41,242 nucleotides of DNA, taken from contig CAKZJX010000082.1 of assembly GCA_937120535.1 (NCBI GenBank), forward strand, positions 1-41,242, written 5' to 3'. The translations under genes and the position numbers were made by a program. The notes beneath the pieces were generated by a model, which worked only from the letters and a program-made list of their open reading frames with translations, was not told the DNA's origin and did no database searches. This stretch comes from an uncultured Anaerolineae bacterium (lineage in GTDB: Bacteria > Chloroflexota > Anaerolineae > Anaerolineales > Villigracilaceae). Positions 38,579 through 41,242 of this stretch are shown in pieces (within the stretch, counting starts at the first letter, position 1; every line of letters begins with the position of its first letter).

Positions 38579-38790
38579 AGTCTTCTCCTTTGGCAAAAGT
38601 GGACGTATAAAATAGCTGGCGTTGCTATTGTGAATGCTATAACGTTAAATTGACCGCGCTCTAGTTCAAATTGGAAGCCATACGAGAACAATGTAGTTAC
38701 AACGGAGAGCATGATCAAAGCGCTGCCTTTGTTGCGTTGGATGATCAAGGGAAGGAACAGGGTATTTAGGGCAAAGGAAAGGATCGTGGT
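38551..38790 (-). pseudogene. Possible membrane-protein remnant
   Basis: A minus-strand frame beginning after a TAG near 38790 reads about 80 residues including LPLIIQRNKGSALIMLSVVT, LFSYGFQFELERGQFNVIAF and TIATPAILYVHF. The RGQFNV segment in a hydrophobic context recalls multi-spanning glycosyltransferases of the GT87/DUF2029 kind. It ends within the start of the kinase gene. There is no ribosome site. Base composition is poorer in GC than the neighbours. Likely a decayed fragment near the MITE; confidence is low. Confidence 0.35.
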
Positions 38791-38875
38791 CTGATCCTAA
38801 GAGTGCAAAGATAGTCGGGGTAATTTTTTGTGTTTGTGCAGAGCCGCTAAAAGCCGACTCCGCTTCCATCAGTCA

Positions 38876-39057
38876 AACTGGACTGGGCTTGTTCAATAAT
38901 ATCCTTGAAGCAATAAGGAGAAGCCGGTAGAGTAGGCATGGGAGGGGAGCAGCGATGGAATCAGCCGCCGATTCAAGGGTCAAACGGCCTGCTTGCGGCT
39001 CTTTTAGAGACAGTTCGTACCATCCAAAGAGGCTTATTGAACAAGCCCAACTGGACT
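38876..39057 (+). mobile_element. MITE copy A with 9-bp target duplication
   Basis: A 164-bp element (38885-39048) with perfect 15-bp terminal inverted repeats GGGCTTGTTCAATAA / TTATTGAACAAGCCC. It is flanked by a perfect 9-bp direct repeat AACTGGACT at 38876-38884 and 39049-39057, the target duplication. Inside is a GGAGG followed by an ATG at 38955. No transposase is encoded, so it needs a helper in trans. A 165-bp inverted copy lies at 40498-40662. Confidence 0.85.
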
Positions 39058-39073
39058 CGACATTGCTCAGACC

Positions 39074-39643
39074 CTATACCTGCTCACTGGACGAGGTCGA
39101 AGCCTTGGGGAGGAGATCGTTCAGGCGGGAACGCGCTAGAAACAAGGCGGCCAGCGTTTTGGCATCGGGGATTTCGCCGCGTTCGGCGCGCTGTAGGGCT
39201 TCGGCCAAAGGGATAGGTTCCACGCGTAGGAACTCATCCTCGTCCGCCTCAAGCGGATTGGGGGTGAGATTGGTGGCCAGAAAGACGATCATGAATTCAC
39301 TGGAGTAGCCTGGCGCCAAGTAGAATTCGCCGATTTTTTCTAATCTTCCAGCAGCAAATCCAGTTTCTTCACGTATCTCACGGGCGGCACATACCTCAGG
39401 AGGCTCTTTGTCATCTAGGGTGCCGGCCGGCAGTTCGAGGAGGTCTTTGCCGGCGGCATGGCGATATTGATGAACGAACACAAGGTTCCCTTGGCTATCT
39501 ATCGGGATGAGCACCACGGAACCGCCATGTTCGATGATGTCAAACTTGGTCTCACGACCATCAGGGGTCTTTAGCCAATCGCGACGAATAGAAAAGGCAC
39601 GACCCTTGAGCAAGGTTTCCGATCGAAGGAGTTCAAAGGGCAT
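39074..39643 (-). CDS. NUDIX hydrolase, ADP-ribose pyrophosphatase-like
   Basis: A 189-residue NUDIX enzyme. The Nudix box GX5EX7REUXEEXGU is complete at residues 74-96 (GTLDDKEPPEVCAAREI, then REETGF). The N-terminal half (LLKGRAFSIRRDWLKTPDGR) and LPAGTLD preceding the box are typical of ADP-sugar pyrophosphatases. It would hydrolyse ADP-ribose or related nucleotides. AAGGAG lies 7 nt before the ATG. The gene lies between the two inverted MITE copies; MITE A ends only 16 nt past its stop. Confidence 0.92.
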   Translation of the reverse strand: MPFELLRSETLLKGRAFSIRRDWLKTPDGRETKFDIIEHGGSVVLIPIDSQGNLVFVHQYRHAAGKDLLELPAGTLDDKEPPEVCAAREIREETGFAAGRLEKIGEFYLAPGYSSEFMIVFLATNLTPNPLEADEDEFLRVEPIPLAEALQRAERGEIPDAKTLAALFLARSRLNDLLPKASTSSSEQV

Positions 39644-39671
39644 CTGACTCTCCTTAGGGCGATGATGGAAA

Positions 39672-39697
39672 ACGCCCAGGCGGTTGAGCCTGGGCGT
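39672..39697 (-). terminator. Rho-independent terminator of the LysM lipoprotein gene
   Basis: Perfect 10-bp stem ACGCCCAGGC/GCCTGGGCGT with a 6-nt loop, followed on the minus strand by TTTTCC, 20 nt after the stop of the LysM gene. Confidence 0.8.
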
Positions 39698-39716
39698 AAA
39701 GCACAGCTCCCACTCT

Positions 39717-40433
39717 TTAGGGGATATTGAGCACTTGACCGACGCTAAGCGGTGTTTCTAGGGTGATGCCGTTTGCCTGCGCAATTTGAAGAGGGTCAAC
39801 ATCGCCGAACAAGCAAGCGATTCCGTAAAGGGTTTCGTTTGGTGATACAACCGTGTAGGTGGTGGGGTGAGGGCGCAGAGCGCGTTCGCCTGGGAAGGAG
39901 CCACTCTGTGGTATCTTGAGCACGGTGCCGGCCATTAGAGAATAAGCTTGGGCGCGGGTGATCCCATTTAGTGCTAGCAGTTCATTAGGGTCGACATCAA
40001 AGCGCCGAGCAAGGCAATAGGGAAATTCCCCGCGCTGGAGGGTATAGGTGGCCGGGCGGACGACCGAGGTCGTCTCCGTAGGAATCGTCGTCTGGGGAGT
40101 AGCGATCGGAGTGGAGATCGAGGGCAATGTCGGGAGAGGTGGTAACGTGGCAAAGACATCTTCCGTTGAAGTTGGGAGAATCGCCTCGGTTGGCTGTTCG
40201 ATCGGCGGTTCAATCACAGGTGTCGGGGTCTCTTCTGCCTCAAGACCCGGCGCAGTTTTTGCAAGGGCTGTAGCCGTGGCAAATTCTTCGATCATCTTCA
40301 TCGGATCGACCGAAGGATCGAGAGGCGCATTAAAAGCACTGGTGGGAACTGGATAGGGATCAGCCGATCGTTGGCAGGAAACAAGCAGCAGTGTAAGAAC
40401 GATGGTCACCAGGCCAAATCGTTTATAGGACAT
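39717..40433 (-). CDS. LysM-repeat lipoprotein
   Basis: A 238-residue exported lipoprotein. The signal peptide is MSYKRFGLVTIVLTLLLVSC with lipobox LVSC (Cys20). A Pro/Thr-rich linker runs to about residue 130 (TPIATPQTTIPTETTSVVRP). Two LysM domains follow: TYTLQRGEFPYCLARRFDVD and TYTVVSPNETLYGIACLFGD, each ending in a lysine/asparagine-isoleucine-proline turn (LKIP and LNIP). It probably binds peptidoglycan or another GlcNAc polymer at the cell surface. The start at 40433 follows AAGGAG by 7 nt. A TTGACT-17 bp-TACTAT promoter is at 40462-40490. Confidence 0.88.
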   Translation of the reverse strand: MSYKRFGLVTIVLTLLLVSCQRSADPYPVPTSAFNAPLDPSVDPMKMIEEFATATALAKTAPGLEAEETPTPVIEPPIEQPTEAILPTSTEDVFATLPPLPTLPSISTPIATPQTTIPTETTSVVRPATYTLQRGEFPYCLARRFDVDPNELLALNGITRAQAYSLMAGTVLKIPQSGSFPGERALRPHPTTYTVVSPNETLYGIACLFGDVDPLQIAQANGITLETPLSVGQVLNIP

Positions 40434-40461
40434 GGAAACACTCCTTGCGGTTGATGATAAC

Positions 40462-40490
40462 ATAGTAGCATATCCATTCCTACAAGTCAA
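40462..40490 (-). promoter_or_regulatory. Promoter of the LysM lipoprotein gene
   Basis: On the minus strand TTGACT (40490-40485), 17-bp spacer, TACTAT (40467-40462). Predicted +1 near 40455. MITE B begins 7 bp upstream of the -35. Confidence 0.65.
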
Positions 40491-40497
40491 GTTTACC

Positions 40498-40662
40498 GGG
40501 CTTGTTCAATAAGTCTTTTTGGATGGTACGAACTGTCCCTAGAAGAGCCACAAGCAGGCCGTTTGACCCTTGAATCGGCGGCTGATTCCATCGCTGCTCC
40601 CCTCCCATGCCTGCTCTACCGGGCTCTCCTTTTGCGTCATGGGGTGCTTATTGAACAAGGCC
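40498..40662 (-). mobile_element. MITE copy B, inverted relative to copy A
   Basis: A 165-bp element whose reverse complement matches copy A closely over about 125 bp, with divergence mostly in the first 35 bp. Terminal repeats are GGGCTTGTTCAATAA and TTATTGAACAAGGCC (one mismatch). No target duplication is visible: the flanks are AAGTTTACC and ACCTTTCAT. It sits just upstream of the LysM promoter. Confidence 0.85.
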
Positions 40663-40667
40663 ACCTT

Positions 40668-40862
40668 TCATGCACCAACGCCATTGCCTGAAGTTGGTGC
40701 CGGTGTCGCTTTTGGTCGTGGTGTCGCTGTTGGACAAGGCTTGCAACACTTAACCCGATAACCATACTGACAGTTTGAGCTTTCGTATCCACCACATTCT
40801 CTTTCTCCTGCAGCGCAGAAATCACATCGCCAGGTACAATTACAACAGCTAGTTGCACTCAC
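40668..40862 (-). CDS. Cysteine-rich short ORF, probably truncated
   Basis: A 64-residue frame with 10 cysteines in its first 42 residues (SCCNCTWRCDFC, ECGGYESSNC, VKCCKPC), then a Thr/Pro-rich tail TATPRPKATPAPTSGNG typical of linkers in secreted Chloroflexota proteins. It begins with GTG without a ribosome site, shortly after an in-frame TAA, so it is probably the 3' end of a longer secreted protein gene cut by the transposase insertion. I do not recognise the family. Confidence 0.4.
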   Translation of the reverse strand: MSATSCCNCTWRCDFCAAGERECGGYESSNCQYGYRVKCCKPCPTATPRPKATPAPTSGNGVGA

Positions 40863-40920
40863 TTTATTTACTCGAGTTTAGACAAAATTGGGGTGGTTCT
40901 GCCCTTGAGCAAAACCGCCT

Positions 40921-40964
40921 TCTGGTAGAAACTTGGGATTGTGAACACTCCAGCTTCTACCAGA
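40921..40964 (+). repeat. Inverted repeat spanning the transposase start codon
   Basis: TCTGGTAGAA (40921-40930) is the exact reverse complement of TTCTACCAGA (40955-40964). The 24-nt loop holds the GTG start at 40941. It may hide the start region in long transcripts entering from outside. Confidence 0.6.
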
Positions 40965-41242
40965 GAGAACATTAGCAGACTTATCGCATTTCGTCAAGCG
41001 GTGTATGAGCGTGTCTTTACGGCGCGACGTGACGCCCTGTTCGATGTGCTGGATGCGCTCCTATCCGCCGGCAGTGTGTCGTCCTTCGCCATGCTCAGCC
41101 AGCACGAGCGTTTCCGGCGCCGGTGGCCCAGTCTGTACGCTGCCGTGGAAGATGGCCAGATCGACCGGGAAGCCTTGCGCACGCTGCTGATTGGTCAGCT
41201 GCCTCGGCGGGGCATTGGCCTCTTTCCCCTGGATGGTTCTTC
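40941..41242 (+). mobile_element. Transposase, 5' part, cut by the window end
   Basis: An open frame from GTG 40941 to the window end encodes at least 100 residues (MNTPASTRENISRLIAFRQA, then LFDVLDALLSAGSVSSFAML and SLYAAVEDGQIDREALRTLL). The pattern of two helical blocks followed by RGIGLFPLDGS, where the first catalytic Asp of the DDE triad is expected, matches the N-terminus of IS701-like/DDE transposases with an N-terminal 'LVDALL' helix. The family differs from the fragment at 1-172. The element's left end must lie between 40862 and 40940, but I cannot fix it. Confidence 0.75.

Follow-up and report, generated by a model that had tools for sequence, protein, structure and literature searches.

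What are the two short inverted repeats that stand on either side of a NUDIX hydrolase gene and a LysM-domain protein gene in the DNA of an uncultured Anaerolineae bacterium, and do they make the genes between them mobile? The stretch analysed, here called the window, is 41,242 nucleotides long, and the first-pass annotation of it had proposed two copies of a miniature inverted-repeat transposable element (MITE) framing a mobilisable 1.8-kb cassette. Our analysis leads to a different answer for the cassette and adds a feature that the annotation overlooked, namely the promoter register of the insertions (Table 1). We consider it very probable that copies A and B belong to a non-autonomous MITE family mobilised by a transposase of the IS5 family akin to that of ISTth7, that this transposase prefers sigma70-type promoters, and that recombination between copies exchanges their flanks. 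Such an enzyme would make 9-bp target duplications and would place its cut so that the duplication ends with the first T of the -35 box TTGACA; the core promoter would stay whole, some 8 bp away from the element.

Table 1. Features of the two MITE copies and their surroundings, in positions of the window.
Feature	Position	Strand	Remarks
-35-like TTGACT beside copy A, in family register	38871..38876	-	flank scoring
9-bp target duplication AACTGGACT, left of copy A	38876..38884	.	sequence
MITE copy A	38885..39048	+	164 bp, GGGCTTGTTCAATAA at either end
9-bp target duplication AACTGGACT, right of copy A	39049..39057	.	sequence
NUDIX hydrolase gene	39074..39643	-	PF00293 E 5.4e-17; ordinary neighbour, not cargo
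LysM-domain protein gene	39717..40433	-	PF01476 E 4.2e-15 on frame 39717-40490; start inferred from homologues
-10 box TACTAT beside copy B	40462..40467	-	spacer 17; faces LysM gene
-35 box TTGACT beside copy B	40485..40490	-	7 bp from element
MITE copy B, inverted	40498..40662	-	165 bp
Outer 9-mer of copy B, ATGAAAGGT in element orientation	40663..40671	.	same as right 9-mer of C42:19797

Copies A and B belong to a dispersed MITE family

No other repeat of 40 bp or more was reported in the window, and the A/B pair is real, not a chance resemblance. The coordinates of two inverted elements of 164 and 165 bp with 15-bp terminal repeats were confirmed, and the perfect duplication claimed for copy A is present on both of its sides. 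Copy B carries GGGCTTGTTCAATAA at 40498 and GGCCTTGTTCAATAA, one base apart from it, at its other end. The copies are closely related, although the description "nearly identical" goes too far for an identity of 89.8%. No duplication surrounds copy B, whose flanks match in 4 of 9 bases.

Searching the genome of the window (3.11 Mb in 140 contigs) with copy A revealed at least 44 BLAST matches (best 40 of 68 candidates scored), the best besides itself at E 3.7e-62 and one of them a 36-bp fragment, so the concern that there might be no other copies can be set aside. The stretches that we fetched held 55 copies or fragments, 51 of them complete in sequence (150-170 bp) and 42 with both ends; these two-ended copies average 87% identity between pairs, and their consensus is 164 bp long. 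There is no transposase gene in the element, as the listed ORFs of at least 80 aa extend beyond it, and the family has the marks of a MITE in its short length, 15-bp terminal inverted repeats, target duplications and many dispersed copies. The consensus was found in 0 of 149 other genomes of the host's family, seven of them of the same genus, when the best five candidates per genome were scored. In this respect the annotation's reading of a mobile MITE is supported: the family makes 9-bp duplications, is multi-copy in this genome and is lacking in the relatives searched. Beyond the family, a search for paired 12-bp ends across 84,980 species returned one Bacillota contig whose interior differed as judged by eye, and none of the viral contigs held one 26-base exact core pattern.

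A structured RNA was considered and rejected: an alignment of 20 of the 42 copies gave a covariation term of +0.22 with compensatory change in 1 of 38 pairs, and the fold of copy A was no better than that of shuffles (z 0.75 and -0.41 on the two strands). Rfam gave no match at 38700-40900. Separately, three MITE copies (C73:5028, C118:27384 and C127:7225) share a common left flank and a truncated left end, and are joined there to another dispersed repeat.

Insertions stand in one register with promoters

To describe the surroundings of the insertions, we read 97 flanks outward from the element ends and dropped 14 (11 running into another element and three near-duplicates), leaving 83. Similarity to TTGACA peaked at flank position 9 with a mean of 3.30 of 6, falling to 1.75 and 1.71 at the adjoining positions and lying between 0.95 and 1.95 elsewhere, and similarity to TATAAT peaked at positions 31-32 (2.05 and 2.27, against 1.35-1.87 elsewhere; n=83 for both). 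The resulting register runs from the element end through about 8 bp, a TTGACA-like box, 16-18 bp and a TATAAT-like box, which is the arrangement of an outward-reading sigma70-type promoter. Scoring each flank out of 12 for a -35 box at positions 8-10, a spacer of 16-18 and a -10 box, and calling a score of at least 9 a promoter flank, we found such flanks in 41 of the 83 distinct cases, as compared with 0.18% of 20,000 random sites in the same DNA. The sequence comparisons thereby show the family in register with predicted promoters. An ORF in the same direction lies within 400 bp ahead of 31 of the 41 promoter flanks and of 21 of the 56 other readable flanks, a count made on all 97 flanks with rough ORF calling.

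The remaining 42 of the 83 flanks score below 9. Assigned to sides, the 42 two-ended copies have a promoter on both in five cases, on the left only in 11, on the right only in 14 and on neither in 12, and the last group includes two copies with perfect duplications, C73:4233 and copy A of the window. Beside copy A the TTGACT is followed by no good -10 box, and its best score is 8/12 where the cut is 9. Among 17 other ends with the family's terminal repeat, five score at least 9 and five face another element. A palindromic target, TGTCAA-N7-TTGACA, was considered and given up, since the motif appears on just one flank of those copies whose duplications are intact.

Ends of this kind occur elsewhere too. 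At C120:70490-70612 lie 123 bp with the family's terminal repeats and a different interior that resembles the 3' end of an IS, and one flank of it is a promoter scoring 10/12. The ends GGGCTTGTTCAATAGGGAGTGGATAAAAAGGGG at C38:244, C48:63 and C93:63, mostly at contig starts, perhaps belong to a third element type.

A likely IS5-type helper and its relatives

The first-pass annotation could not read a helper transposase family from the ends; the same terminal repeat, however, fronts the start of an IS5-family-like transposase. In C105 the family end GGCCTTGTTCAATAA, with a promoter flank of 10/12, adjoins a 148-aa frame that runs off the contig and matches the NCBI profile NF033579 (IS5 family transposase) at E 5.7e-8 and 32.6 bits, the curated cut-off being 140. 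A profile search of this N-terminal fragment also gave a weak match to Pfam DDE_Tnp_1_5; its matches are to IS5 and not to Mutator families, and it is 39% identical to the transposase of ISTth7. A matching end at C37:17587 stands beside a C-terminal fragment with 45% identity to the ISTth7 transposase over 62 aa. The helper is likely of IS5 type, and an enzyme of this kind would move the MITE. A complete autonomous element was not found in this genome, which may reflect repeats collapsed in assembly. Elements of the IS903-type subgroup of IS5 make a 9-bp duplication and have ends beginning GGC; in the present family the duplication is 9 bp long and the ends begin GGG or GGC.

None of the other 151 genomes in the host's family gave a match to the fragment, nor did the genome_contigs or viral_contigs collections contain relatives of it, and full ISTth7 as query found none in viral_contigs either. 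Matches came from three of 399 other genomes in a sample of the phylum and from plasmids of Thermus and Aquifex, and these relatives match the IS5 and DDE_Tnp_1 profiles. Weak relatives occur in G328, G711 and G565, and a search for ends in G328 found nothing.

The Thermus plasmid match is annotated as ISTth7, and its 92 ends in 16 Thermus plasmid records gave 57 distinct flanks. Here too TTGACA similarity peaks at position 9 (mean 2.98), with 14 of the 57 flanks scoring at least 8/12 (0.3% of random sites) and seven at least 9 (0.035%). ISTth7 resembles the MITE family in its GGGCTTG ends, its 9-bp duplication, exact in 16 of 22 distinct full copies, and its promoter register; it differs in being a full IS of about 1.03 kb, in its high-GC host and in a looser promoter preference. 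PMC6352166 describes it as an active IS5-family element of the IS5/ISH1 subgroup with 8-bp repeats, and the word "promoter" is absent from the main text of that paper. In two other genomes of the phylum, G509 and G513, five of seven element ends score at least 9/12, and one stands at a 16S rRNA operon, in front of the 16S gene. ISAae1, an IS5-family element on the Aquifex aeolicus plasmid ece1, has a 9-bp duplication AACCAAGGT, ends resembling those of the MITE, and scores in register of 10/12 and 8/12; with 30% transposase identity, a single copy and AT-rich flanks, it is weak evidence.

Several observations on these relatives were made in passing. ISTth7 copies internally deleted to about 360 bp with both ends kept, and in this sense MITE-like, occur on several Thermus plasmids, for example at 114708-115069 of W09 (NC_017590.1) and similar places. 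Thermus plasmids of two strains (L163 and L135) carry ISTth7 at what seems to be the same target, CCTTCCCGTTGACC, with opposite ends adjoining it. Two copies of the G509 transposase gene (L097 at about 1515-1530 and L100 at about 1740) change frame at the same place, by shared decay or a programmed frameshift.

What guides the insertions

One explanation of the register is that the transposase reads the DNA motif N8-TTGAC alone and hits promoters since TTGAC is their -35 sequence, with no role for RNA polymerase. We regard this as a serious possibility, somewhat short of an even chance. It agrees with the poor-35 flanks, which have no excess of -10 boxes (one of the 33 reaches 5/6 at positions 31-33), and with ISTth7, where 16 of 57 flanks have TTGAC exactly at position 9 (0.03 expected), several of them without a convincing -10 box (a score of 2 or less in 5 of the 16). 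It sits less well with the -10 boxes of the MITE flanks themselves: TTGAC lies exactly at position 9 in 30 flanks, and 24 of these are followed at the proper spacing by a -10 box scoring 4/6 or better. Such a -10 box follows 17 of 71 intergenic TTGAC sites lying outside elements (p 2e-7) and 13 of the 34 among them that face a gene start (p 7.5e-4); in these comparisons sites inside elements were masked, and the Fisher tests treat sites as independent. Moreover, C78, C37:47193 and C120:70490 have -35 boxes of only 3-4/6 and yet have -10 boxes of 4-6 matches in place.

The -10 excess at TTGAC flanks, together with its lack at poor-35 flanks, indicates that both boxes matter and that the -35 sequence is required. 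With ISTth7 the excess is modest, with a -10 box of at least 4/6 in six of the 16 TTGAC flanks and in seven of 94 other TTGAC sites (p 0.0035), and masking sites inside elements changed this control little. Because of its weak -10 boxes and an insertion in the ago gene, reported in PMC6352166, the targeting by ISTth7 is not strict. Recognition would involve either promoter-bound RNA polymerase or the -35 DNA. Tentatively, we suggest that the IS5 branch to which the MITE helper, ISTth7 and the elements of G509 and G513 belong may have come independently to integrate under the guidance of RNA polymerase, or its sigma factor, bound at promoters. Insertion would then fall between the -35 contact and the region upstream of it, and dozens of promoters in this genome would have been separated from their upstream control DNA.

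Promoter targeting as such is known for Mutator-type elements, and what is new here is another distance and, probably, another transposase family. In PMC3942029, TnGBS, ISLre2 and ISKra4-group elements, all Mutator-like, are described as inserting upstream of sigmaA promoters at a distance of 13-17 bp, and a contact with the initiation complex of RNA polymerase is proposed. These elements and the MITE family have in common a fixed distance upstream of promoters, and in both the promoter may lie at either end of an element whose inverted repeats are near-perfect; they differ in that a Mutator-type transposase acts at 13-17 bp from the -35 box in the former, whereas the candidate for the latter is of IS5 type and would act at about 8 bp. 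Such published targeting by ISLre2 and ISKra4 might suggest a Mutator-type helper of either kind for our family, but we find this improbable, given that the -35 box at 8 bp falls outside the 13-17 bp range and that the frame behind the same terminal repeat, like its relatives, matches IS5-type profiles. "IS5" is absent from the main text of PMC3942029, and our literature search, which lay mostly among papers open without subscription, found no description of promoter targeting by an IS5-family element. Ty1, Ty3 and other eukaryotic promoter-targeting elements offer an analogy only, in their use of safe sites beside the machinery of transcription start, as Ty1 and Ty3 are retrotransposons with unrelated enzymes; the comparison with Ty3 is already made in the Discussion of PMC3942029.

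Still less probable, by a little, is near-random insertion followed by selection that retains copies harmless upstream of promoters. The copies do lie mostly between genes, where insertions are tolerated, and at about 13% divergence they may be old, but harmlessness cannot account for a one-base register with its peak at position 9, and the same register recurs in two other phyla, in ISTth7 of Thermus and at the one end of ISAae1 that scores 10/12. We infer that transposition itself, rather than later selection, makes the register.

If the IS5-type reading is right, a second, unrelated transposase family would join the few bacterial elements that aim at promoters, and with a tighter register. 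ISTth7 in Thermus thermophilus, an organism used in the laboratory, would offer a tractable system for studying guidance of a bacterial transposase by RNA polymerase. The insertions would mark dozens of likely promoters in a genome of an uncultured type, and would have stripped the marked promoters of whatever upstream control they had.

Duplications, tandem copies and exchanged flanks

A duplication matching in at least 8 of 9 bases surrounds 12 of the 42 two-ended copies, eight of which have a promoter on exactly one side and none on both, the other four being C73:4233, copy A and two distal tandem members (C11:55646 and C65:8779). Conversely, none of the five copies with two promoters has a duplication matching at this level.

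Since each insertion by the proposed mechanism would rebuild the target, the same promoter could be hit again, and tandem copies 9 bp apart are predicted and were found: at six places (C11, C26, C37, C54, C65 and C93) and at C38 a spacing of exactly 9 bp separates two outward ends, and in C33 a MITE is followed by 9 bp and a related end. Three of the tandem places hold two full MITE copies, with identities of 87.2%, 83.3% and 95.8%, exceeded respectively by 454, 751 and 7 of 861 random pairs. By these identities, two of the pairs look like independent insertions in one target, and the third, the most similar, could be a local duplication.

The many copies would also supply homology for recombination, by which flanks are exchanged. 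In three pairs of non-adjacent copies the left 9-mer of one equals the right 9-mer of the other at all nine bases; over 500 column shuffles the mean was 0.038 such pairs, and three never occurred. Two of the pairs, C22:27882/C22:39053 and C54:22235/C54:46038, are each in opposite orientation on one contig, and the third joins copy B to C42:19797 on a different contig. When the left flank of copy B, a single 9-mer and the right flank of C42:19797 are put together, the resulting 51 bp match, at 90% identity, a repeat that runs without interruption at C134:25-75, C52:80927-80977 and C123:26-76 and represents a related empty site. The annotation was right that copy B has no duplication, and had taken it to be older, rearranged or to have lost it; on the sequence evidence, exchange of flanks by recombination with another copy fits best. 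Such exchange would explain why the flanks of copy B and many others do not match as duplications and how some copies came to stand between two promoters, and some exchanged flanks could be errors of the 140-contig assembly. The dispersed repeat in question (GGCGTTGGTGCATGAATAGTTGACG... in C134, C52 and C123) holds a TTGAC site and served as a MITE target.

The LysM locus and the proposed cassette

Between copy B and the LysM gene, on the minus strand, lies TTGACT-N17-TACTAT (40490-40462), with the element upstream of it and the LysM start codon 28 bp further on. Upstream of LysM homologues, TTGACG-N17-TACCAT is found without the element in six of the six genus loci displayed (L187, second matches aside). 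This promoter, kept in the six loci, therefore predates the insertion, and the empty sites in relatives that the annotation had asked after do exist. At the C65 and C33 loci, relatives lack the element and also lack a comparable promoter.

That A and B form a composite transposon carrying the NUDIX and LysM genes is scarcely credible, even with two inverted copies 1.45 kb apart: no single duplication surrounds the whole unit, the outer flanks AACTGGACT (A) and ACCTTTCAT (B) being different, copy A has a duplication to itself, the left 9-mer of B recurs at C42:19797, and the LysM gene looks resident, with homologues in seven of seven other genomes of the genus and the MITE absent at all nine relative loci compared. 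The mobilisable 1.8-kb cassette accordingly gives way to two ordinary members of a dispersed family.

Another element lies at the contig break, where a 100-aa ORF (40941-41242), open at the contig end, corresponds to the N-terminus of the putative transposase NF041680 (E 6.8e-21, 74.8 bits, cut-off 440).
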